From IMG/VR virus record IMGVR_UViG_3300025079_000033, positions 1 to 22,034 of that record: DNA of 22,034 nucleotides; one strand, written 5' to 3'. Of this stretch, positions 1-14,567 are shown in pieces. Position numbers and translations under genes: made by a program. Numbering within the stretch: position 1 is the first letter of the stretch; each line of letters begins with the position of its first letter. The DNA comes from a virus. The notes beneath the pieces were generated by a model. It saw only the letters and a list, made by a program, of their open reading frames with translations. It was not told the DNA's origin and ran no database searches.

Positions 1-222
1 AAAGCCCTGACAAGGTGAGCCGAACATAATCAAATCAAAATGTTCAGTAACCTTTACATCCCTCACGTCACCTATATGTATCATGTTAGGGAAGTTCTTC
101 TTTGCAACAGAGATAGCATACTTATCAATCTCAGATGCAACATACTTCTCTACATCTATACCCAATCGTTGCAATGCAATCTGACCGCAACTCATACCGT
201 CAAATAAACTTAATACTTTCAT
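1..222 (-). CDS. DNA cytosine-C5 methyltransferase, N-terminal part (cut by window edge)
   Basis: Seventy-four codons are visible from the ATG at 222 down to the left edge, with no stop, so the 3' part lies outside the window. The start MKVLSLFDGMSCGQ carries the AdoMet-binding motif I of C5-cytosine methyltransferases (FDGMSCG in place of the usual FxGxGG), as in many phage-encoded enzymes. ASEID at about residues 29-33 fits motif II, GDVRD at 51-55 fits motif III, and GSPCQGF at 68-74 is motif IV with the catalytic cysteine (Cys71). A GAGGAG ribosome-binding site lies just upstream on the coding strand. It should methylate cytosine in phage DNA. No restriction gene is visible nearby, so an orphan anti-restriction role is likely but inferred. 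The target site cannot be told because the recognition domain is missing. Confidence 0.93.
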   Translation of the reverse strand, partial: MKVLSLFDGMSCGQIALQRLGIDVEKYVASEIDKYAISVAKKNFPNMIHIGDVRDVKVTEHFDLIMFGSPCQGF

Positions 223-225
223 CAA

Positions 226-471
226 CTATACTCCTCTGTTTGTAGGTCTATCAGTATGAGACCATCGTTCATCAATGTAAACCCTCAGATTTTTAGAGGC
301 ATATATTGGAGAACCAAACTCATAGTCTCTCCAATTATGGTTCTCACTATCTAAGTTCTGACCCTTACACGTCAGCTTGTAGACATCTCTATTAAGATAC
401 TTCCTCATTAATCTGACCAGCTCTTTACCCTCTGTTGTATTGGGTATCTTTTGGAAATGATATCTTGCCAT
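226..471 (-). CDS. hypothetical protein, 81 aa
   Basis: This is a small leftward gene between the methyltransferase and a 72-aa gene, ending three bases before the methyltransferase ATG. The protein is basic and aromatic (RYHFQKIP near the N-terminus, WRDYEFGSPIYASKNLRVYIDERW in the C-terminal half), with no signal peptide or membrane segment and one cysteine. I do not recognise a domain. Its ATG shares one base with the stop codon of the preceding gene (TAATG arrangement), which argues that it is translated and coupled. Conserved position in a leftward cluster suggests an early gene, possibly involved in host takeover, but nothing in the sequence shows this. Confidence 0.7.
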   Translation of the reverse strand: MARYHFQKIPNTTEGKELVRLMRKYLNRDVYKLTCKGQNLDSENHNWRDYEFGSPIYASKNLRVYIDERWSHTDRPTNRGV

Positions 472-689
472 TATTCTGTTACCTCTTCTTCTTTAATCAT
501 AATCTTAAAACCTAAGTCTCTAATATAATGAAACCTATCTTGAGCTATGTGAGTTCTACCCATTAAGTCACAAAAGAAATTGGATACATCACAGTTAGGT
601 AAATACTTTGTAACGTCATTTTTTATATAACGAGTGACATAAACATTCTTATTAAAATCTACTGTCTCATTTACTATACTTTTCATCAT
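471..689 (-). CDS. hypothetical protein, 72 aa
   Basis: A small leftward gene starting MMKSIVNETVDF and ending in an acidic tail (EEEVTE). It overlaps the preceding 101-aa gene by four bases (ATGA at 686-689) and its stop overlaps the next start by one base, so translation is probably coupled across three genes. A second ATG is the second codon, so the start may be one residue later. It has a few aromatic residues and two cysteines but no motif I recognise. No function is proposed. Confidence 0.65.
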   Translation of the reverse strand: MMKSIVNETVDFNKNVYVTRYIKNDVTKYLPNCDVSNFFCDLMGRTHIAQDRFHYIRDLGFKIMIKEEEVTE

Positions 690-991
690 ACTTTCCCTTC
701 TATAAAATCTACTACATGATTTGCATTATCAGCATTTATAAACCAGTCAGCTATTCCGCCATGTAAGTTTAAACCTTTGTCTTTTATTCCACTCCCATAT
801 CCATCCAAACCCAATAGAGTTGACGCATAGTAACGACCTATAAATTGACCGTATTGAGTGTGGTCGTATCTTGTATCATAAAAACTGACTAACATTTTTG
901 TGGTGTTGTCGTCTTCATTTTCTCTTTCACTAAGTACGACATTAAACATTATGTTCTTGTCGTTTATAACGTGGGTCATTTGATTAAGCAT
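686..991 (-). CDS. hypothetical protein, 101 aa
   Basis: A leftward gene of unknown function. The middle is rich in tyrosine and aspartate (SFYDTRYDHTQYGQFIGRYY), then a Gly-rich turn (LGLDGYGSG) and a C-terminal stretch with WFINADNANHVVDF. There is no signal peptide, membrane segment or cysteine pair. The start lies inside the last codons of the 49-aa gene upstream, an eight-base overlap, and its ribosome-binding site is the purine run GGGAAGGGAA within that gene. Start choice is well supported by this site. It is probably a soluble early protein. Confidence 0.7.
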   Translation of the reverse strand: MLNQMTHVINDKNIMFNVVLSERENEDDNTTKMLVSFYDTRYDHTQYGQFIGRYYASTLLGLDGYGSGIKDKGLNLHGGIADWFINADNANHVVDFIEGKV

Positions 992-1133
992 TGTTTAGTT
1001 CCCTTCCCTTATCAATTATGTTGCTTGCTTGTGTTGGTGTGAAGCCATAATACTCAGCAAATACCGACACTGTTAAAAAGTTATTAAACCAATCTAAATA
1101 CAGTTCAATCAATCTATCCTCTTTAATATCCAT
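984..1133 (-). CDS. small helix-turn-helix-like phage protein, 49 aa
   Basis: A short gene read directly from the complement: MDIKEDRLIELYLDWFNNFL at the start, then TVSVFAEYYGFTPTQASNII and a short tail. The pattern LYLDWxNNFLTVxxFAExYGxxxxxAxxII is one I remember as a widespread tiny phage protein. The second half looks like a helix-turn-helix pair (FAEYYGFTPTQASNII), so weak DNA binding is possible, but this is inference. It has a good ribosome-binding site (AAGAAGGGAAC), an ATG start and an eight-base overlap with the next gene. The composition and in-phase overlap support a real gene despite its length. Confidence 0.75.
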   Translation of the reverse strand: MDIKEDRLIELYLDWFNNFLTVSVFAEYYGFTPTQASNIIDKGRELNNA

Positions 1134-1174
1134 TGTTTAGTTCCCTTCTTTGTAAGTCCCTACTTCGTAGTGAC

Positions 1175-1221
1175 GTTGGTTAATATTAAATAAGGTACTC
1201 CGAAAAATACCCTATAAACTA
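1175..1221 (-). repeat. Duplicated leader hairpin element, copy A
   Basis: In + strand terms the element is GTTGGTTAATATTAAATAA, a 4-base stem arm GGTA (1194-1197), a 10-base loop, the arm TACC (1208-1211), then CTATAAACTA. Copy B at 1521-1567 has identical flanks, the same 10-base loop length and the stem arms CCCA and TGGG. Flanking T1191-A1214 and A1192-T1213 pairs extend the stem past one A/C mismatch. The element lies between the stop of the 90-aa gene and the start of the 49-aa gene on the transcribed strand. Conserved pairing with changed bases points to a structured RNA leader, a processing site or a weak terminator. Confidence 0.75.
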
Positions 1222-1227
1222 TTAACC

Positions 1228-1500
1228 TTAGTTAAGATTAGTTAAGATTAGTTCTCCTCTTTTGATTGCATTTTTTACATGCTGACTAGTCATACCTAAA
1301 TACTGATTAAGATATGTGGAAGTTGTTTTGGAATAGTTCCAATACTTTTCATCCAAATAAGTTTGACAGAAATCTTTTGAACTATCAGACATTGCTACTA
1401 TTACATTATAAGATTGAAAATACATTTTACTGTCACCGTACATAATAATTTGATTAGGAGCTTTTCTACCGTTTGATGATGTCATATTATAAGCTTTCAT
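1228..1500 (-). CDS. hypothetical protein, 90 aa (DUF8033-like)
   Basis: The protein begins MKAYNMTSSNGRKAPNQ and continues with IIMYGDSKMYFQSYNVIVA, then YLDEKYWNYSKTTSTYLNQYLG and ends ELILTNLN. The pattern of PNQ-I-FQSYN, then YLD-YW-YSKTT-YL-LG and a terminal ILTNLN matches a small family I remember from phages and plasmids as DUF8033; its function is unknown. It is soluble, about full length for that family. The ribosome-binding site is AGAAGGGAT just upstream of the ATG. The last codons contain a tandem GTTAAGATTA on the + strand (1231-1250). It lies between hairpin copies A and B. Confidence 0.75.
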   Translation of the reverse strand: MKAYNMTSSNGRKAPNQIIMYGDSKMYFQSYNVIVAMSDSSKDFCQTYLDEKYWNYSKTTSTYLNQYLGMTSQHVKNAIKRGELILTNLN

Positions 1501-1520
1501 TTGTTTTATCCCTTCTGTTG

Positions 1521-1567
1521 GTTGGTTAATATTAAATAACCCACTATAAATAATGGGCTATAAACTA
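1521..1567 (-). repeat. Duplicated leader hairpin element, copy B
   Basis: This is the second copy of the 47-base element, between the 64-aa and 90-aa genes. The first 19 bases (GTTGGTTAATATTAAATAA) and the last 10 (CTATAAACTA) are identical to copy A. The stem arms are CCCA (1540-1543) and TGGG (1554-1557) instead of GGTA and TACC, so three of four base pairs have changed on both sides. T1545-A1552 and A1546-T1551 can extend the stem inward. On the transcribed strand it is followed by a ribosome-binding site and the 90-aa gene start. Confidence 0.75.
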
Positions 1568-1572
1568 CTAAC

Positions 1573-1767
1573 TTACCTTAATCGTTCTTGGTGTATTATT
1601 GCAGAAATATTATAATCTTTACCGTAATAAAAATTTAATGAACTTCCTATCTTTTTATGTTCAGCAATTTCACCAACATATTCTAGTGCAACTTTCTCAG
1701 CTTTTTTGAAAGTTGAAAAAATCATTGTGAAGTCTTCACTTCTTTCCAGTGTGTATACATTTCTCAT
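1573..1767 (-). CDS. hypothetical protein, 64 aa
   Basis: This is the first gene of the leftward block, next to the large non-coding region. It starts MRNVYTLERSEDFTMIFSTF, then a lysine and alanine helix (KKAEKVALEYVGEIAEH), and ends NISAIIHQERLR. No domain is recognised. The alternation of strands and one helix suggests a small alpha/beta fold, which is only inference. An AAAGGATAAACAA leader precedes the ATG and resembles the leaders of the 90-aa, 49-aa and 101-aa genes. Its promoter should lie in 1768-2000, but I see no convincing leftward -35/-10 pair there. Confidence 0.65.
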   Translation of the reverse strand: MRNVYTLERSEDFTMIFSTFKKAEKVALEYVGEIAEHKKIGSSLNFYYGKDYNISAIIHQERLR

Positions 1768-1939
1768 TTGTTTATCCTTTTGTTTGTTTTTCTTGTGTCT
1801 ATTAAGATAATGGCACTATTTCAAATTACAACCCCTAAACAAAAATAAATTTAATGTGGGTATAAAAGATACTATAATATATAAAACCTGGACTGTTCTC
1901 CTTTTGTTCTCTTTTGTAATGTTATCAACACGTTGGTTG

Positions 1940-1979
1940 GATAGTGTGAGAACTAAAGCTATTTGGAACACGCACTATC
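1940..1979. repeat. Inverted repeat, 9-bp arms
   Basis: GATAGTGTG (1940-1948) pairs with CGCACTATC (1971-1979), with one G-U pair, around a 22-base loop. A short T run (1980-1983) follows on the + strand, but the loop is long for an intrinsic terminator. The left arm contains AGTGTGAGA, close to the AGTGTGACA repeats further right, so it may belong to the same protein-binding set. Confidence 0.5.
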
Positions 1980-2006
1980 TTTTAAATGTGATCACAAACG
2001 TAACAC

Positions 2007-2067
2007 CAGTGTGACATTCCAGGCACAGTGTGTCCTGGCAGCAACACATTCTGGGCACAGTGTGACA
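2007..2067. repeat. CAGTGTG repeat cluster (iteron-like)
   Basis: CAGTGTGAC occurs at 2007-2015 and 2058-2066, with the variant CAGTGTGTC at 2026-2034. A longer 19-base unit, ACATTCCAGGCACAGTGTG (2014-2032), recurs 32 bases on as ACATTCTGGGCACAGTGTG (2046-2064) with two differences. An inverted copy of AGTGTGACA sits at 2159-2167. Repeated short sites at multiples of about a helical turn suggest a phage protein that binds several copies, such as a replication initiator, small terminase or regulator. Confidence 0.65.
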
Positions 2068-2079
2068 AAAAAGTAACAT

Positions 2080-2093
2080 GGGGGGTTGGGGGG
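2080..2093 (+). repeat. Paired G6 tracts
   Basis: GGGGGG-TT-GGGGGG stands alone in a low-G+C region. It could take part in a G-quadruplex or mark a packaging or replication site. Only two long tracts are present, so an ordinary four-tract, three-layer quadruplex within one strand is not supported by this piece alone. Confidence 0.5.
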
Positions 2094-2272
2094 TCATCCT
2101 TATTCAGTGAATTGCACCTAAATATTTTCTAATAGTTTTTAGAGCCATGTAAAGCCCTTGTCACACTTTAGGGGGCAACACCCTAGCTAAACACATTTGC
2201 GGCTACTGACGGAGCTAACAGAGCCTCTCAGCTATACTTTAGATTTATTAGTAGGTATGTTTGTGCGGAAGG

Positions 2273-2350
2273 ATTATAGTACACTATAGTTAAACTATAG
2301 TTCTACACCGTAATAACTCACTAAAAAGAAATACTATAGTACACTATAGT
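2273..2350. promoter_or_regulatory. ACTATAGT palindrome array (operator or phage-RNAP promoter candidates)
   Basis: The self-complementary 8-mer ACTATAGT occurs at 2283-2290, 2294-2301, 2333-2340 and 2343-2350, with a 7/8 copy at 2273-2280. Copies within each cluster are 10-11 bases apart, one helical turn, and a 16-base block (TATAGTACACTATAGT) is repeated exactly 60 bases apart at 2275 and 2335. The same block contains CACTATAG, which is the -7 to +1 core of the T7 RNA polymerase promoter. Either repressor or activator binding or a single-subunit polymerase promoter would explain it. No such polymerase is encoded in this window. Confidence 0.55.
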
Positions 2351-2416
2351 GTATATATAGATACCTCTTGTTGTAATTCAAGGACGTGCCTAAAATTTAT
2401 TTGTTGTAATTAAGTA

Positions 2417-2446
2417 TTGACGGAACAACACAATATATGGTATAAT
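2417..2446 (+). promoter_or_regulatory. Sigma70-type promoter driving the rightward operon
   Basis: TTGACG (2417-2422) and TATAAT (2441-2446) are separated by 18 bases, and TGG directly before TATAAT gives an extended -10. Transcription should begin near 2453, leaving about 20 bases before the ATG at 2476. This is the only strong rightward promoter seen before 18828. Confidence 0.75.
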
Positions 2447-2475
2447 GTTTTATAAGTTTATTGTTAGGATGTTAT

Positions 2476-3006
2476 ATGTTGTTTGGAACAGACTTTACTA
2501 AAACTATAAAGGGTGTTGTTCGAACAAAGTCTCTCTTTTACGAACTATCCTATGACAAACCAGACTTCGTTATCTTTACACTTAAAGACAAAGACCTAGA
2601 GCACAATGGTCGAACCTATACATCTATCTCAAATCTTTACAGAAGTTTAGTACCTCAAGATCCAACTGAGTATACATTTGCTATGACAGTGTTTGGAAGT
2701 TGGTATGTGTGGGAAGTAATTCGAGAAGCACCTCAACTCAGACCACATGTGGCTAGATGGAAGAGGGAAGCTGAAGTTAAAGTTAAATCCGAAGCAATCA
2801 AAGCAATAGCCGAAGAAATGAAAAGTCAAGGCCGTAGTTCATTTACTGCGGCTAAACTTCTTTTAGAAAGAGGTTGGATTGAAAAAGAACCTGCATCTAA
2901 AGCTAAACAAAAATTAATTGACAAAGAAGAACAAGATATGGATCGACATGCTCTTAGTCTTTTAGATGAAGAAGCTGAACGATTAGGTCTAAAGAGGATA
3001 AACTAG
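2476..3006 (+). CDS. probable terminase small subunit, 176 aa
   Basis: The central block LYRSLVPQDPTEYTFAMTVF (residues 54-73), followed by W-VWE, a basic helix (WKREAEVKVKSEAIKAIAEE) and a GWIEKEPASKAKQK linker leading to an acidic C-terminal helix, follows the pattern I remember for small terminases of marine podoviruses, in which DPTEYEFA and a GRPSK-type linker are typical. It should bind phage DNA and hand it to the large subunit. I chose the ATG at 2476 because AGGA (2466-2469) lies six bases upstream. The in-frame TTG at 2461 would add 15 residues but would start only about eight bases after the predicted transcription start. The large subunit gene is 10 kb downstream, which is unusual. 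Assignment is from motif memory only. Confidence 0.7.
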   Translation: MLFGTDFTKTIKGVVRTKSLFYELSYDKPDFVIFTLKDKDLEHNGRTYTSISNLYRSLVPQDPTEYTFAMTVFGSWYVWEVIREAPQLRPHVARWKREAEVKVKSEAIKAIAEEMKSQGRSSFTAAKLLLERGWIEKEPASKAKQKLIDKEEQDMDRHALSLLDEEAERLGLKRIN

Positions 3007-3007
3007 T

Positions 3008-4246
3008 ATGGCTAAACAAGCTTCCATTACTACTATTAGTTCAGGATATGCTTCAACTACACAGTTGAATGGAAACTTTGCTGAACTAAATACAGCATTA
3101 ACTAATACTCTATCCAGAGATGGCAGTACTCCTAATACAATGAGTGCTGACTTTGATCTAAACAATAATGATATTCTTAATGGAGCTGTTGGTAACTTTT
3201 CTAATGTTGTTGTAGCAGGAACAAACCTTACAACACAGATTACTAATACTACTAACTCTGCTAATGCTGCAGCAGCTTCAGCTACAGCTTCTGCTAACAG
3301 TGCAACAGCTTCGGCAGGTTCTGCAACAACCAGTGGGAATGAGGCAACTGCTTCAGGAAACAGTGCTACGGCTGCTGCAGCTTCTGCTAGTACAGCATCA
3401 ACTCAAGCTTCACTAGCCACAAGCAATGGTCAAGCACAAGTAGCCCTGGCAACTACCCAAGCTAACAATGCAGCAGCTTCTGCAAGTACAGCTAGTACAA
3501 AAGCTAGTGAGGCGGCAAGTTCAGCTACAGGTGCAAGCTCCAGTGCGAGTACAGCTACGACCCAAGCTGGAACAGCTACAACAAAAGCAGGGGAAGCTTC
3601 AACATCAGCTTCAGCCGCAGCTACGGCTCAATCTGCTGCAGAGGCAGCCAAAGATGCAGCACTAGCTGCCTTTGATAACTTTGATGATAAGTTCTTAGGT
3701 GAGAAGTCTTCAGCTCCAACAGTGGACAATGATGGTGATCCCCTTGCTGCAGGTATGCTTTATTTTAATACCTCAAGCAATGCAATGTTTGTGTATTCGG
3801 GAAGTGCCTGGTTAGCTGCCTATGCTTCACTTGCTGGAGCTTTACTTGTTGCTAACAATCTATCAGACTTAGCTAATGCAGGTACAGCAAGGGGAAATCT
3901 TGGTGTAGCTATTGGATCTAATGTACAAGCCTACGATGCAGACCTAGCAGCAATAGCTGGACTAACATCTGCAGCAGACAAAGGTATTCAGTTTACAGGG
4001 TCTGGCAGTGCAGGAACATATGATTTAACGGCTGCAGGAAAAGCATTACTTGATGATGCTAACAATACAGCACAAAGAACAACACTAGGTTTAGGTACTG
4101 CTGCAGTTTTAAACGTAGGTACGAGTGCAAACAACATTGTTCAACTTGATGGAAGCTCTCGTCTTCCTGCGGTGAACGGTTCACAATTAACAAACTTACC
4201 TGCCTCTGGTGACGGTGGCATAGCAATGGCAATTGCTTTAGGATAA
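3008..4246 (+). CDS. tail fibre protein with Ala/Ser/Thr-rich shaft, 412 aa
   Basis: The N-terminal part has FAELNTALTNTLSRDGSTPN and SADFDLNNNDILN, the form found in many phage fibres where a short attachment domain leads into a shaft. Residues about 80-220 are almost wholly Ala, Ser and Thr (runs such as SATASANSATASAGSATTSG), expected to form a trimeric rod. After a charged break (FDDKFLGEKSS) comes GMLYFNTSSNAMFVYSGSAW (FNTSSN at 253-258), a motif shared with the glycine-rich fibre at 4612. The C-terminal part has repeats such as LGLGTAAVLNVGT and ends in SRLPAVNGSQLTNLP. It begins one base after the small terminase stop with AGAGGA upstream. The role is virion fibre and host contact. Confidence 0.85.
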   Translation: MAKQASITTISSGYASTTQLNGNFAELNTALTNTLSRDGSTPNTMSADFDLNNNDILNGAVGNFSNVVVAGTNLTTQITNTTNSANAAAASATASANSATASAGSATTSGNEATASGNSATAAAASASTASTQASLATSNGQAQVALATTQANNAAASASTASTKASEAASSATGASSSASTATTQAGTATTKAGEASTSASAAATAQSAAEAAKDAALAAFDNFDDKFLGEKSSAPTVDNDGDPLAAGMLYFNTSSNAMFVYSGSAWLAAYASLAGALLVANNLSDLANAGTARGNLGVAIGSNVQAYDADLAAIAGLTSAADKGIQFTGSGSAGTYDLTAAGKALLDDANNTAQRTTLGLGTAAVLNVGTSANNIVQLDGSSRLPAVNGSQLTNLPASGDGGIAMAIALG

Positions 4247-4258
4247 TAGGAGAAGAGA

Positions 4259-4603
4259 ATGGCAAATGCCTTTTTATCAGAAACAGATACAGGAGTTGGT
4301 ACTGGGTTAACCACTATCTTTTCCTGTCCCTCTAGTACAGAGACAACAATAATTGGTTTGTCCATTGCTAATATACACACAGCACAGATTAAAGTAAGTG
4401 TGCAGTTTGCAGGTGCAGGGAGATCATCAGGAGCAGTAGATAATGTGTTCCTAATTAAACTAGCTCCCATTCCTGTAGGTGGTACTCTTGTTGTTGTTGG
4501 AGGGGATCAGAAAGTTGTAATGGAGCCAGGAGATATAATTAAAGTTCAAAGTGACGTAGCATCAAGTGCTGATGTCCACCTGTCTCACCTTGATATTACT
4601 TAG
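4259..4603 (+). CDS. putative virion-associated beta protein, 114 aa
   Basis: This is a beta-rich protein with ETTIIGLSIANIHTAQIKVS, then FLIKLAPIPVGGTLVVVGGD and QKVVMEPGDIIKVQSD, ending DVHLSHLDIT. The pattern APIPVGxxLVVVGGDQKVV with a terminal LxIT is one I remember from small proteins beside fibre genes in marine phages. It has no signal peptide or membrane segment. It begins 12 bases after the fibre stop, behind an AGGAGAAGAG site. It is probably a small structural or fibre-accessory protein; the exact role is unknown. Confidence 0.65.
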   Translation: MANAFLSETDTGVGTGLTTIFSCPSSTETTIIGLSIANIHTAQIKVSVQFAGAGRSSGAVDNVFLIKLAPIPVGGTLVVVGGDQKVVMEPGDIIKVQSDVASSADVHLSHLDIT

Positions 4604-4611
4604 GAGTTAAC

Positions 4612-5940
4612 ATGGCCTACCAAGGAAATAGTCCTGCTGCTAACTTCCAGTCACTCCCAGCAGTACAAAGATTTAATGGTGACGGAAGTGACACAACTTT
4701 TACGTTAGCTTCTGTTATAGCCAACGACCAATCTATCTTGGTGTCAGTTGACGGTGTAACCCAAGACAGCAATGCTTACTCAGTCTCAGGTACAACACTT
4801 ACATTCACTGCCGCACCCTCATCTGGAACAGGTAACATATTTGTAAATACTATTAGCCCTGTTGGCTCTACTGTCGTACCACCTGATGGGAGTGTTACTA
4901 AAGTAAAAACTGATTTTTATATTAGCCAAGCAACAGCTCCCTCAAGTCCAACACAAGGTGACATGTGGTTTAATACTTCTTCTAATATAGTCAGTGGAAT
5001 ATCATCTAAAGCTTTAGCTGCCTATAATGGAACAGCTTGGCAGAAAGCAACAACGGGAATTGTTATGACTGCTACAGGTGGGACTAAGACAACATCAGGT
5101 CTTTATACTTACCACACTTTTACTTCGTCAGGAACATTTAGTGTAAGTGAGACATCGGGAATTATCGATTTTCTTGTTATTGCAGGCGGTGGCGGTGGGG
5201 GTCATGACAACGGCGGCGGTGGCGGAGCTGGGGGTGTCGTGTGGACAACATCCGCAAACGTGGCGACAGGAAACCATACCGTAACCATTGGGGCTGGTGG
5301 AGCACCTTCAGCAGCAGGTGGAATTAATCCAGGGGCTAATGGGGCTAATTCAATTTTTAAAACTGCGACTGCTTTGGGTGGTGGCGGTGCTGGCGGAGCT
5401 GAGACGAATGGTGCTAATGGGGGTTCTGGCGGTGGCGGTTCACGAAACCGTGTTGGCGGTTCATCAACTCAAGGAGCCTCTGGTGGTACTGCTTTTGCTA
5501 ATAGAGCATCTGCATCTACAAACTCCTCGTTTGAAGGCGGCGGTGGCGGTGGCGCAGGTGCGGCAGGTACAGCAGGGACATCTGGAGCTCTCGGGAGTGG
5601 TGGTATAGGCGTTAGTACGTTTGTTAATTCTTCTGCTACCGAAACAACTGCTTTTTTACTGGCGGCCCTTGCAGGAACAAATTCTTCAAACGTAGCAACC
5701 ACATCATCTTCTTCTGGAACTCTCTATATTGCTGGCGGTGGTGCAGGAGGTTCTCAAAATTCAGTAACAGCCGCAACAACGGCAGCAGGTGGTGGTGCTC
5801 CAAGTGTTGGTCACACCAACGCAACAGGCGTTAGTGGGCTAGTGAATACAGGTTCTGGTGGCGGTTCATCAGGTACGGGATCAGGGACTGGCGGTTCAGG
5901 AGGTTCAGGAATCGTAATAATAAGGTACTTAACATCATGA
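4612..5940 (+). CDS. glycine-rich tail fibre/adhesin, 442 aa
   Basis: The N-terminal 90 residues (MAYQGNSPAANFQ, then FNGDGSDTTFTLA and SILVSVDGVTQ) form a beta domain that resembles the start of the fibre at 7043, probably the virion-attachment part. A GDMWFNTSSN motif follows (FNTSSN at 120-125). From about residue 190 the protein is a glycine-rich domain with runs of five or six Gly, such as GGGGGGHDNGGGGGAGG, ending SGIVIIRYLTS. Such domains occur in phage receptor-binding tips, where glycine-rich loops can pack as polyglycine II helices. The Gly stretches use GGC and GGT heavily, so this part is visibly richer in G+C than its neighbours. It overlaps the next gene by four bases (ATGA). 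Confidence 0.85.
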   Translation: MAYQGNSPAANFQSLPAVQRFNGDGSDTTFTLASVIANDQSILVSVDGVTQDSNAYSVSGTTLTFTAAPSSGTGNIFVNTISPVGSTVVPPDGSVTKVKTDFYISQATAPSSPTQGDMWFNTSSNIVSGISSKALAAYNGTAWQKATTGIVMTATGGTKTTSGLYTYHTFTSSGTFSVSETSGIIDFLVIAGGGGGGHDNGGGGGAGGVVWTTSANVATGNHTVTIGAGGAPSAAGGINPGANGANSIFKTATALGGGGAGGAETNGANGGSGGGGSRNRVGGSSTQGASGGTAFANRASASTNSSFEGGGGGGAGAAGTAGTSGALGSGGIGVSTFVNSSATETTAFLLAALAGTNSSNVATTSSSSGTLYIAGGGAGGSQNSVTAATTAAGGGAPSVGHTNATGVSGLVNTGSGGGSSGTGSGTGGSGGSGIVIIRYLTS

Positions 5941-6254
5941 GCCATTTTGCAAAATTAAATAACAATATAGTCACCGAAGTTATAGTAGCCGAACAAGACT
6001 TCATTAACTCAGGTGCAGTAGGGGATTCATTCTTATGGGTTCAAACATCTTACAATGGAAACTTTAGAAAGAACTATGCAGGAGTTGGGTATTCTTACGA
6101 CAAGACAAGAGATGCTTTCATCCCACCTAAACCTTATGCAAGCTGGACATTAGTTGAGGATACCTGTCAGTGGCAAGCACCTGTAGCATATCCAGATGAC
6201 GGCAAAGTATATAACTGGGACGAGAGTTCAACAAAATGGGTAGAGGTGGTTTAG
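5937..6254 (+). CDS. putative fibre-associated structural protein, 105 aa
   Basis: It starts MSHFAKLNNNIVTEVIVAEQ, has QTSYNGNFRKNYAGVGYSYD in the middle, and then FIPPKPYASW and a Trp-rich end (CQWQAPVAYPDDGKVYNWDE). I remember the NGNFRKNYAGxGYxYD-FIPPKPYxSW pattern as a very common small protein in marine phage and cyanophage tail regions, with no established biochemical function. It has no signal peptide. It is translationally coupled to the preceding fibre by an ATGA overlap and stops directly before the next ATG. A role as a small virion or fibre tip protein is inferred from context. Confidence 0.75.
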   Translation: MSHFAKLNNNIVTEVIVAEQDFINSGAVGDSFLWVQTSYNGNFRKNYAGVGYSYDKTRDAFIPPKPYASWTLVEDTCQWQAPVAYPDDGKVYNWDESSTKWVEVV

Positions 6255-6773
6255 ATGGCATTAACTAAAGTAAACTCAGGTGGCATTAATTTTACTATTG
6301 GTAAAGTTTTGCAAGTTGTAAGTGCAACAAAAACTGATACCCAAACAATCCAGAGTACTAATTTTACTGATGTATTTTCTGTAGCAATAACTCCTTCAGC
6401 TACTTCTAGTAAAATTTTTATACTTCTAAATATTAATATAACAGGTAATGTTAGATATGGTGGAGTAAAAATGTATCGAGATAGTACTCAAATTAATTTA
6501 GGAGATGCGTCTGGTAGCAGAACAAGAGTCAGTATTTCTTCAGAGGGAAACCATGACGCAACCAATGATTCGTATGTATTAAAAAATGGTAGCTCTTCTT
6601 TTTTAGATAGTCCAAGTACTACAAATGCAGTTACTTACAAAGTAAAAGTTGGAAGCACACAAGATGCTGATAATAGTAACTACACATATATAAATAGACC
6701 AGCAAATTATGATGACGGAAATTATATAAATAATGGTGCTTCAACATTTACACTTATGGAGATTGCAGGATAA
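6255..6773 (+). CDS. putative tail fibre/receptor-binding protein, 172 aa
   Basis: It begins MALTKVNSGGINFTIGKVLQ and VVSATKTDTQTIQSTNFTD, then alternates beta segments (VAITPSATSSKIFILLNINI, GGVKMYRDSTQINLG) and closes with ASTFTLMEIAG. The GKVLQVV-KTDT-PSATSSKI-FTLMEI pattern is typical of small fibre-like proteins in marine phages as I remember them, with a central variable part. It starts on the base after the previous stop and its stop codon shares one base with the next ATG. It likely forms a beta-sandwich on the virion; ligand unknown. Confidence 0.75.
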   Translation: MALTKVNSGGINFTIGKVLQVVSATKTDTQTIQSTNFTDVFSVAITPSATSSKIFILLNINITGNVRYGGVKMYRDSTQINLGDASGSRTRVSISSEGNHDATNDSYVLKNGSSSFLDSPSTTNAVTYKVKVGSTQDADNSNYTYINRPANYDDGNYINNGASTFTLMEIAG

Positions 6774-7039
6774 TGGTAGACACACACAAAGCAATATTTG
6801 CACTTTACTCAAATGTTAGGTCTGTCAACGGAGACTACAATGCTTATGATGCAAGTGGAAAGTCAGTCACAATAAATCAATCTACAGTTAATGCTTGGGT
6901 AGATCCTAATCTTTACAAGTACAAGAGAGCTAACGAGTACCCATCCATAGCAGACCAGTTAGACAACATCTACCACAACGGTATTGATACATGGAAAGCT
7001 ACGATTAAAGCAACCAAAGACAAGTACCCTAAAGGATAA
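6773..7039 (+). CDS. XkdW-like small tail-region protein, 88 aa
   Basis: The N-terminal half (MVDTHKAIFALYSNVRSVNG, DYNAYDASGKSV) is variable in character. The C-terminal half has NEYPSIADQLDNIYHNGIDT followed by WKATIKATKDKYPKG, which matches the YPxIxDQLDxxYHxG-KATIKAVKDKYPK signature found beside many phage fibre genes and resembling the XkdW domain. Its activity is not known; it may assist fibre assembly or sit in the virion. Its start overlaps the previous stop by one base and the next gene starts four bases after its stop. Confidence 0.7.
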   Translation: MVDTHKAIFALYSNVRSVNGDYNAYDASGKSVTINQSTVNAWVDPNLYKYKRANEYPSIADQLDNIYHNGIDTWKATIKATKDKYPKG

Positions 7040-7042
7040 AAC

Positions 7043-8164
7043 ATGGCATACATAGGAACATCCCCACAGAACGGTGTACGAAATCGTTTCGTCTATGCTG
7101 CTACCCAAGGTCAGACAGCTTTTACTGGTGCTGATGCAGACAGCAAAACACTAGCCATTAGTGACCAACTGTACACAGATGTATACCAGAATGGTGTGAA
7201 GCTAAAGCTAACTACTGACTGGACAGCTACGGCTACAACAGTCACCCTGGTTAACGCAGCAAGTGCAGATGATGTAATAGAGATTGTATCCTTCGATGTA
7301 TTCTCTGTAAGTGACACAGTGCCAGCCAGTACAGGTGGAACTTTCAACGGAGGCATAGGTGCTACTACTGGGACGTTTAGTGGAGCAGTTAGTGGCACTA
7401 CTGGTACGTTTAGTGGTAACGTAGCTGTAACAGGTGTGCAAACTATTACAGCTAACGGAGCACACATAAATCTTGATACTCCTTCTTCTGGTCAAAATGC
7501 TTGGATAACTTGGAAAGACAATGGTGCTTCTAAGTGGGAAGTTAACAAAGGTACAACACATGATTTTAAAATATATAGTTATGCTTTAAGTGCTAACATG
7601 TTAGTTTTAAAAGGAGATGGAGATATCTTTTTTAACTCTGAAAATGCGTCGGGAAATGCTGGTAGAGTTTTTCTTGATCGTCAAGATTCTAATCGTACTG
7701 TTTTAGAAGTTAACCAAAATACAGGTGGTGGTACAGAATTTATGGCTTTCCGTTGTGAAGGTACAAAAATAGGTAGTATTACTCAGAACGGAGGGAGTAA
7801 CACTGCCTTTAATACTTCTTCTGACTATAGGTTAAAAGAAAATATTGCTTTAATTTCTGATGGTATAACAAGAGTAAAAAAACTTAAACCATCTAGGTTT
7901 AATTGGATATCTGATGATACTGATAAACTTCAAGATGGATTTATAGCACATGAAGTTTCACCAGTTATTCCAGAAGCAGTTTCAGGTGAAAAAGATGCAG
8001 TATTTGCAGAAGACACAGACATAGGTAATGATAAAAAAGGTGTTATCAAACCTCAAGCATTAGATTATTCCAAATTAACACCTCTTCTTACTGCGGCATT
8101 ACAAGAAGCTATTGCTAAAATTGAAGTATTAGAAACAAAAGTTGCAGCATTGGAGGCAGAATAA
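7043..8164 (+). CDS. tail fibre/tailspike with C-terminal S74 intramolecular chaperone, 373 aa
   Basis: The first 95 residues (MAYIGTSPQNGVRNRF, TAFTGADADSK, VYQNGVKLKL) are a beta attachment domain related in layout to the glycine-rich fibre. Then come tandem shaft motifs (TTGTFSGAVSGTTGTFSG), a beta region with AWITWKDNGASKWEV, and a C-terminal S74 peptidase/chaperone domain: SSDYRLKEN with the Ser260/Lys265 dyad, then GFIAHEV and a final coiled coil (IAKIEVLETKVAALEAE). In this family the domain helps the trimer fold and is cut off just before the catalytic serine, so the mature fibre would be about 259 residues. The stop shares a base with the next ATG. Confidence 0.9.
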   Translation: MAYIGTSPQNGVRNRFVYAATQGQTAFTGADADSKTLAISDQLYTDVYQNGVKLKLTTDWTATATTVTLVNAASADDVIEIVSFDVFSVSDTVPASTGGTFNGGIGATTGTFSGAVSGTTGTFSGNVAVTGVQTITANGAHINLDTPSSGQNAWITWKDNGASKWEVNKGTTHDFKIYSYALSANMLVLKGDGDIFFNSENASGNAGRVFLDRQDSNRTVLEVNQNTGGGTEFMAFRCEGTKIGSITQNGGSNTAFNTSSDYRLKENIALISDGITRVKKLKPSRFNWISDDTDKLQDGFIAHEVSPVIPEAVSGEKDAVFAEDTDIGNDKKGVIKPQALDYSKLTPLLTAALQEAIAKIEVLETKVAALEAE

Positions 8165-12778: not shown

Positions 12779-13035
12779 TGGCTGCTTACCAAGGTAAAAG
12801 TGTAAAGTTAAATAAACCTAGACGTATCTCTAAAGGAGAAACAAGCTACGGTAAAAAGAAATCTGTTGTCTACGTTAAAGACGGTAGTAAAACAAAACGA
12901 GTTACCTTCGGTGATCCTAACATGACAATTAAAAAGAATATTCCTGGAAGAAAGAAAAACTTTAGGGCTAGGCATAACTGTGATACTCCTGGCCCTAAAA
13001 CAAAAGCTAGGTATTGGTCTTGTAGAGCATGGTAG
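12778..13035 (+). CDS. small basic protein adjacent to terminase, 85 aa
   Basis: The sequence has KSVKLNKPRRISKGETSYGK and KKSVVYVKDGSKTKRVTFGD in the first half, then KKNFRARHNCDTPGPKTKAR and YWSCRAW at the end. The pattern VFVKDG-KVKRVTFGDPNM followed by FRARHNC-PGPKTKARYWSCxAW is one I remember in many phages close to head or packaging genes, sometimes as a domain inside larger head proteins. Two cysteines and one histidine in the C-terminal motif could bind metal, but this is not shown. It is strongly basic. It overlaps the large terminase start by seven bases. Confidence 0.75.
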   Translation: MAAYQGKSVKLNKPRRISKGETSYGKKKSVVYVKDGSKTKRVTFGDPNMTIKKNIPGRKKNFRARHNCDTPGPKTKARYWSCRAW

Positions 13036-14567
13036 TAACCCAAGATGACATAAGGGATGCAGCAGAAAGTGATCTAATTACTTTTATTAAACTTATTGCA
13101 CCTGAACAATTACTAGGACAATGTCACGAAGATATGTGTCAGTGGTGGACTAAAGAAAACAGTAAGACCCACCAACTACTACTCTTCCCAAGAGATCATG
13201 GTAAGTCTCGAATGATTGCTTATCGTGTAGCATGGGAGTTAACTAAAGACCCGACACTTAGAATACTTTATATATCTGCGACAGCTAACCTTGCAGAAAA
13301 ACAGTTAGGATTTATTAAAGGAATACTAACATCAAACACCTTCCGTAGATACTGGCCTGACCATGTACAAAAGGAAGAAGGTAAACGTGTAAGGTGGACA
13401 ACATCAGAAATTATGTTAGACCACCCACTTAGAAAAAAGGAAAATGTTCGTGATCCGTCTATATTTACAGGTGGTCTCACTACCTCACTTACTGGTATGC
13501 ACTGTGACATTGCTGTTTTGGACGATGTTGTCGTATATGAAAACGCCTACACAGGGGAAGGTAGAGAAAAAGTTAAGAGTCAGTACTCCCTCTTATCCTC
13601 GATTGAAGGAACTAATGCGAGAGAATGGATTGTAGGAACAAGGTATCATCCTTCTGATCTTTATAGTAACCTAATGAAAATGGTTGAAGACAAGTATGAC
13701 GATGATGGCAACAAAGTATCTGAAGAACAGATATACGAAATTTTAGAAAGAGCTGTTGAGGACAGAGGGGACGGAACAGGAGAGTTCTTGTGGCCTCAAC
13801 AGTCACGAAAAGACGGCAAACAGTTTGGGTTTAATCGACAAATACTAGCTAAAAAAAGAGGACAGTACTTAGACAAGTCTCAGTTTAAAGCACAGTATTA
13901 CAATGATCCTAGTGATCCAGACAACGTACCAGTAGAGAGAAACAAGTTTCAATACTTTGAACGTAAACATCTACGAGAAGAAAGTGGTTACTGGTTCTAC
14001 AAAGAAAGTAAATTAAATATCTTTGCAGCCGTAGACTTTGCATTTAGTTTGTCAAAGAAAGCAGACTACACAGCACTTGTTATTGTAGGAGTAGACTCTC
14101 AAAATAATATTTATGTTTTAGATATAGACAGATTTAGAACAGACAGAATATCTGAGTACTTTAAACATATACTAGAGTTGTCAACTAAATGGTCGTTTAG
14201 AAAAATGAGAGCAGAGGTTACAGTAGCACAACAAGCTATTGTTGTTCAGCTAAAAGAATTAATTAAACAACATGGGTTGTCAATTAGTATAGATGAATAC
14301 AGACCTAACAGACATCAAGGAAATAAAGAAGAACGTATAGCTGCGACACTAGAGCCAAGGTACGATAACCTACAAATATGGCACTATCGTGGAGGAAATA
14401 TACAAGTGTTGGAAGAAGAGTTAATGTCCAGACATCCACCACACGATGATATAAAAGATGCTTTAGCTGCAGCTATTGATATTGCAATTAAACCATCAAA
14501 AAGTATTAATCGTACAATGAAAAACAATATTGTTTGGGCTAATAACAGATTTAGAGGAGCCGCATAA
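13029..14567 (+). CDS. terL: terminase large subunit, 512 aa
   Basis: This is the DNA-packaging motor and nuclease. The ATPase domain has a Walker-A-like FPRDHGKS (residues 53-60, with GKS in place of the usual GKT/S ending), YISATANLAEKQ (a motif typically following it) and Walker B IAVLDDVV (161-168, Asp165-Asp166). The C-terminal RNase-H-type nuclease domain shows FAAVDFAFS (Asp336) and HDDIKDALA (Asp473, Asp474, Asp477) as metal-binding acids. The length is normal for a podovirus large terminase. It overlaps the gene before it by seven bases and its stop shares one base with the portal start, so the packaging pair is translationally coupled. Confidence 0.95.
   Translation: MVVTQDDIRDAAESDLITFIKLIAPEQLLGQCHEDMCQWWTKENSKTHQLLLFPRDHGKSRMIAYRVAWELTKDPTLRILYISATANLAEKQLGFIKGILTSNTFRRYWPDHVQKEEGKRVRWTTSEIMLDHPLRKKENVRDPSIFTGGLTTSLTGMHCDIAVLDDVVVYENAYTGEGREKVKSQYSLLSSIEGTNAREWIVGTRYHPSDLYSNLMKMVEDKYDDDGNKVSEEQIYEILERAVEDRGDGTGEFLWPQQSRKDGKQFGFNRQILAKKRGQYLDKSQFKAQYYNDPSDPDNVPVERNKFQYFERKHLREESGYWFYKESKLNIFAAVDFAFSLSKKADYTALVIVGVDSQNNIYVLDIDRFRTDRISEYFKHILELSTKWSFRKMRAEVTVAQQAIVVQLKELIKQHGLSISIDEYRPNRHQGNKEERIAATLEPRYDNLQIWHYRGGNIQVLEEELMSRHPPHDDIKDALAAAIDIAIKPSKSINRTMKNNIVWANNRFRGAA

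Follow-up and report, generated by a model that had tools for sequence, protein, structure and literature searches.

We propose that the short palindromes lying between the terminal repeat and the late genes of this phage make up a terminal-junction short-repeat array that works like the SRR of T7, a reading to which we give a probability of about 0.5 and which stops short of saying that the array is a T7 SRR. (SRL and SRR are the short-repeat arrays that flank the T7 terminal repeat.) In function, the array is probably a site that a protein binds when concatemers are processed or packaged. The protein, a dimer or a ring, would occupy neighbouring sites about one helical turn apart and, once bound, may mark or shape the concatemer junction as the place for terminase to cut and package; it could be a small terminase or another phage protein.

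The window, by which we mean the whole 22,034-nucleotide stretch of viral DNA analysed here, is by its predicted genes and their order a podophage of the Cobavirinae (Zobellviridae) that spans a concatemer junction. Its large terminase (13029-14567, plus strand) is 76.5% identical to the homologue in Roseobacter phage CRP-5 and 73% identical to that of Lentibacter phage ICBM2, both of which are Cobavirinae in the Zobellviridae. These phages are its nearest kin by terminase and by first late gene, and the window has divergent arms with a terminal repeat between them: early genes (1-1767, minus strand) run away from the junction and are followed by a terminal repeat whose last base is 2112, then by the array, a sigma70 promoter, and the late genes. 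Two further contigs come from the same phage, G014 (99.993% identical to the window over 13,877 bases and 100% over 1,355) and G013 (100% over 2,093 bases). Together the window and G014 close a map of about 42 kb (35,281 + 8,157 - 1,374 bases), in which the window's contig is the sole one to show bases 2113-8157, the array included. G014 encodes a ribonucleotide reductase, a family A DNA polymerase, a helicase-primase, and a cytosine methylase, and it is through G014 that the cobalamin-dependent ribonucleotide reductase looked for in Cobavirinae was found (PF02867, E 4.5e-48; the B12-type insertion domain scored only below its cut-off). The cytosine DNA methylase gene lies in the early arm (window 1-225; 1150-1944 of L134) and, among ten other genomes or partial genomes compared, was matched in G003 and G004 only. 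Bases 1-19 of the window match neither G013 nor G014 in what is otherwise an identical stretch, and are likely an assembly error.

The direct terminal repeat, present as one copy in this concatemer-like contig, occupies 1950-2112. Its late-side edge, 2112/2113, is the point at which G013 ends exactly and aligns with the annotated repeat edges of ICBM1 and ICBM2; its start near 1950 is placed only by reference to the repeats of those two phages, which are 172 and 159 bases long, respectively, and are annotated at both genome ends. In ICBM1 and ICBM2 the early genes leave one end and the late genes the other, and joining the ends as in a concatemer puts the repeat between the arms. The window shows such a joint, with minus-strand early genes up to 1767 and plus-strand late genes from 2476. 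The array thus lies near the terminal repeat at a concatemer junction, starting about 160 bases from the repeat edge. Beside the genome end stands a terminus box, AGAAAAT (2124-2130, minus strand), that is conserved in Cobavirinae junctions: it is exact at the same distance in 38 of 48 distinct junction sequences, window included, and within one mismatch in 44 of the 48, in a set gathered by repeat-side patterns (for the window, by its own letters), so that conservation on the repeat side is selected and conservation on the AGAAAAT side is not. T7 carries AAAAATCTGAGTGACTA immediately before its terminal repeat. The Cobavirinae box (window 2113-2130) resembles the AAAAATCTGA box that precedes the T7 terminal repeat. 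At the repeat edge itself, window 2100-2112 reads ATTCACTGAATAAG and most of the 48 junctions read ATTGTACATA, on the side that lay within the search pattern. T7-like concatemers and packaging have been proposed for cobaviruses in passages of PMC6775973 that also describe a conserved region in the terminal repeats; "promoter" and words starting with "palindrom" are absent from the main text of that paper.

Within the array, the word ACTATAGT occurs exactly at 2283, 2294, 2333, and 2343, with a near copy, ATTATAGT, at 2273, and successive starts are 10, 11, 39, and 10 bases apart. The copies form one cluster of three (2273-2301; steps 10 and 11) and another of two (2333-2350; step 10), while a 16-base block, TATAGTACACTATAGT, at 2275-2290 returns at 2335-2350, an offset of exactly 60; a separate repeat search agrees, with a 33-base direct repeat (79%) at a spacing of 60. 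Our word scan therefore bears out both the two clusters of copies and the recurring block, as described in an initial annotation of this DNA. The number of copies exceeds chance: in dinucleotide shuffles of the 348-base interval 2113-2460, an 8-mer present four times turned up in 3 of 5000, and one present three or more times in 108 of 5000. If one mismatch is allowed, the count over the whole window, 25, is no striking excess over the shuffle mean of 17.35 (4 of 100 shuffles reach it). The description of the palindromes as helically phased stands for the word starts, with their steps of 10, 11, and 10, but base-by-base periodicity falls short of significance (22 of 44 bases match at period 10, a value reached by 60 of 200 shuffles); phasing in the window is a property of the word copies alone, over few steps. 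It might be argued that the interval is simply a passive, AT-rich, low-complexity stretch in which words recur by chance, and its AT-richness and lack of significant base periodicity would suit that idea. We consider it very unlikely, given the rarity of such word counts among shuffles, the excess of palindromes across the family, and the recurrence of the array beside the terminase gene in other phages. The window gave nothing at gathering score in an Rfam scan and no hit in a tRNA search.

The block also contains CACTATAG, the core of the T7 promoter, at 2282 and 2342. This observation is correct as first made, and it had raised the possibility that the repeats are tandem promoters for a single-subunit phage RNA polymerase encoded outside the window, a proposal that has since failed and that we regard as scarcely credible. 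PF00940, the profile for this polymerase, was matched in none of 20 different Cobavirinae-type records (several of the contigs are partial), which comprised a first set of 12 contigs (with no control signal), a second set of 11 records (six named genomes and five repeated contigs) in which the T7 positive control was matched, and G013 and G014; for window bases 1374-8157, beyond the coverage of G014, the polymerase was judged from the list of open reading frames only. Parts of PMC6775973, PMC6918029, and PMC9960094 likewise describe Cobavirinae-type phages as being without an RNA polymerase. A T7-type promoter was also rejected on its letters, as the 23-base T7 consensus (entered from recall) is matched at 9-13 of 23 positions and the best match elsewhere in the window reaches 15; the promoters of T7 itself score 20-23, and phiOR 23. 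Moreover, promoters spaced at steps of 10-11 bases would overlap, and further sites before other gene blocks are missing, with no other exact copy of ACTATAGT in the window, G013, or G014. Even in G015, a marine phage that does have such a polymerase, no common flanking sequence is visible by eye around the ACTATAG sites.

Comparison with other cobaviruses indicates that palindromes are a feature of this interval across the family. We collected loci by the first late gene, phrog_8035, first 44 and then the best 80 of 163, largely on the same contigs. The upstream set combined the best 80 of 163 loci with 14 of the 44 earlier ones, the window, CRP-4, CRP-5, ICBM1, and P12053L; 94 rows had at least 250 bases, of which 92 were retained after two (by their distances, ICBM1 and P12053L) were excluded for an interval of less than 120 bases, and shared 8-mers reduced these to 37 non-redundant regions. 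Where no terminus was recognised, a fixed position of -420 or the contig end was used instead. The 37 intervals from terminus to late -35, the window's among them, hold 250 perfect palindromes of at least 8 bases, compared with 131 expected (200 dinucleotide shuffles; mean 131, sd 12, maximum 161). Palindromic words across the regions include TACTATAGTA, TACTTAAGTA, TACTTTAAGTA, TACTAATAGTA, and CTTTAAAG, and CTATAG occurs 25 times against 7.3 expected, in 17 of the 37 regions. Motif palindromes of similar format are present in 21 regions; the tested motif was not found in the other 16, and this lack of universality counts against a role at the junction. Close relatives of the window carry different words at the same place, which suggests rapid turnover of the word within a lasting arrangement. 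ACTATAGT itself was not found in ICBM1 or P12053L, whose interval is only about 100 bases long. When a fixed pattern, TACTnnAGTA, was scanned genome-wide, the densest cluster fell at the junction in only some genomes; the actual format is looser.

The main rival to the junction reading arises from the promoters around the array. The late sigma70 promoter predicted at 2417 is borne out by consensus, with a match of 11/12 (TTGACG-18-TATAAT, 2417-2446, plus strand) and TG before the -10, and a late site of at least 10/12 is present in 35 of the 37 regions. The palindromes stand 67-144 bases ahead of the late -35 and could be operators, bound cooperatively by a phage regulator that controls the promoter at 2417, an outward-facing promoter, or both. 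The array would then act as an early-to-late transcription switch using the host polymerase, and we infer that in a phage without its own RNA polymerase such a switch must go through the host enzyme. Tandem short palindromes bound cooperatively near a promoter are known from operators of the MetJ and TrpR types, which the window resembles in having tandem short palindromes near a promoter; no such regulator was found among the early proteins scanned. An operator upstream of the promoter at 2417 had been one of the two readings first put forward; it was right about the position and overlooked the terminus and the concatemer junction. We judge the operator reading possible and tentative, below the junction reading in likelihood.

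Further evidence for operators comes from the spacing of the arrays and from a second promoter. Among the 21 of 37 regions that bear the motif, the distance from array to late -35 is steadier (sd 37) than that to the terminus (sd 60, with fallback values for some termini), which favours a promoter role and counts against the junction reading. A degenerate sigma70-like site faces outward in the window (2354-2381, minus strand, 8/12), and in this place sites toward the genome end score at least 10/12 in 28 of the 37 regions, as compared with a mean of 4.7 and a maximum of 10 in composition-only shuffles, and 12/12 in 22. The outward site lies on the late side and is directed at the terminal repeat; it is perhaps a host-polymerase counterpart of T7 phiOR, which is annotated on the strand running to the T7 right end. 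Where the outward promoter is strong, 17 of 29 motif palindromes fall between +1 and +60 relative to it, an operator-like place that again argues against the junction reading. Regions with a weak outward site are also richer in motif palindromes, with a mean of 4.22 (n=9) compared with 0.86 (n=28; Mann-Whitney p=0.002). Two of these nine regions (L217 and L224) have no motif palindrome, however, and the seven array-rich phages include six from a single clade (support 92/78), the seventh, CRP-4, standing apart on a long branch, so the association represents at most two independent cases. It also counts against operators that no second exact site was found elsewhere in the genome.

A point against operators is that identical 8-mers form arrays in another phage family, the marine Autographiviridae of the Pelagibacter type and their relatives. 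When viral contigs were scanned for pairs of ACTATAGT 10 or 11 bases apart, 51 stretches were returned, a total that may be near chance, and 21 of the 51 follow a T7-like large terminase gene at a distance of 48-750 bases, with steps of 10-12; these 21 are not independent, as many of their terminases are 94-100% identical to those of the G018 or G020 group. For 16 of these 21 stretches, all copies lying no more than 1200 bases from the terminase gene precede a AAAATCTG box; the box was not found in the other five. G018 and G019 have 11 copies each, mostly at 11-base steps, and the G018 array is clearly periodic (42 of 44 bases match at period 11; 0 of 200 shuffles as high). The G018 terminase shares 77% identity with its counterpart in Pelagibacter phage HTVC011P. 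These arrays differ from the window's in belonging to another family, in reaching 11 copies, in lying downstream of the terminase gene, between it and the terminus box, and in occurring in phages of which three (G015, G016, and G022, the contigs of L077, L114, and L115 among the 21) have a single-subunit RNA polymerase. They also have no sigma70 promoter alongside: a site of at least 10/12 facing the terminus was found in none of 16 such intervals, and one facing the terminase in a single interval, against a shuffle mean of 4.95. Two of the loci, L115 and L124, each combine three copies of ACTATAGT with three of CTTTAGG, the reverse of CCTAAAG, in one shared interval.

CCTAAAG is the heptamer of the T7 repeats, known ever since T7 was sequenced, whose role is, to our knowledge, still unsettled. 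T7 has twelve CCTAAAG-like words (at most one mismatch) at 175-332, mostly at 13-base steps. Seven more lie at 39606-39734, ahead of the terminal repeat at 39778, in the place where the marine T7-like phages have ACTATAGT. The periodicity of the left array is strong (36 of 44 at period 13; 0 of 200 shuffles as high) and that of the right array weak (14 of 200). The window and T7 are alike in their short words, which share CTAwAG and recur roughly every helical turn close to the terminal repeat, and both have, on the same side, a conserved AAAAT box at the genome end. They differ in several respects. The window word is not the T7 heptamer, although ACTATAGT is one change from CTAAAG in its core, and it is palindromic, whereas CCTAAAG is one-sided. 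Instead of the mostly 13-base steps of T7, the window has four exact copies and one near copy in only two clusters, with steps of 10-11. Its array is about 160 bases from the terminus, compared with tens of bases in T7, and lies upstream of late genes that leave the junction, in a phage without an RNA polymerase. By eye, similar words occupy this place in HTVC011P, CRP-171, and CRP-227; periodicity is clear only in CRP-171 (1 of 200 shuffles as high, compared with 9 in HTVC011P, 10 in HTVC025P, and 45 in CRP-227). Such arrays are not universal: in HTVC201P a lysozyme gene abuts the box, and in HTVC019P a lysozyme gene occupies the place and the exact box was not found. We found no paper in the open-licence PMC literature that describes the T7 repeats or cobavirus promoters. 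It is because the arrays of cobaviruses, marine T7-like phages, and T7 share a terminus and not a type of promoter that we rank a junction or packaging role first.

Which protein might bind the array was considered on both sides of the junction, and that none was found counts against the junction reading. Repeated protein-binding sites near the packaging cut are known from the R sites of lambda cosB and from other small-terminase sites. The window shares repeated, putatively bound sites near the cut, but they are palindromes of 8-10 bases, and its small terminase is a candidate only. That candidate is the first late gene in the cobaviruses examined, phrog_8035 (2476-3006, plus strand; 176 amino acids), which might encode the small terminase on the strength of synteny in Vibrio phage ICP2, where its homologue overlaps the large terminase gene. 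Its profile gave an hhalign probability of 0.4 percent against T7-type small terminases, a PDB sequence search returned nothing useful and NCBIfam nothing, and two structure models (mean pLDDT 60 and 71.6) had no significant match in the PDB. Against BFVD the fold had four matches, with E up to 0.001, all unnamed or uncharacterized, and two small terminases appeared only at E >1.

On the early side, the scanned proteins yielded neither a recognised regulator, which weakens the operator reading, nor a recognised replication initiator. The latter bears on the idea that the genome end holds a replication origin with the palindromes as its iterons. An AT-rich junction with short recurring sites, in a phage that has its own DNA polymerase and primase-helicase, would suit such an origin, but no initiator was recognised and T7-type origins operate through transcription and not through iterons; we consider iterons improbable, if somewhat less so than chance recurrence. 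HTH_39 was found in only 4 of 19 records (ICBM1, ICBM2, P12053L, and SIO1). Of the early genes in G014, a Cas4-type exonuclease (L134 6660-7526) is the one gene present in both array-rich complete genomes and missing from all six array-poor ones; it is matched in G001 and CRP-4 and not in ICBM2, CRP-5, G002, G003, G004, or G005. That an exonuclease and no regulator tracks the array-rich genomes is a further point against operators; by annotation, ICBM1, P12053L, and SIO1 also have such exonucleases or an exonuclease in that position.

Our findings may fit into a broader pattern, which we offer as a speculation that we think more doubtful than the operator reading. Phased short-repeat arrays could be a general, fast-changing junction part of T7-supergroup phages, in which place and format are kept while the word turns over, and the cause may be a rapidly evolving packaging protein, the small terminase or a partner, that wraps the junction. 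The cobavirus palindromes would then be the form taken in phages without an RNA polymerase, with a host-type outward promoter in place of T7 phiOR. Whichever role the arrays have, the same kind of array, built on the same word, near the genome ends of two marine phage families provides a set of natural variants. Because these variants differ in word, spacing, number, and neighbouring promoters, they make the packaging and operator readings separable, and cultured relatives, including ICBM2, CRP-4, and HTVC025P, exist in which this could be pursued.
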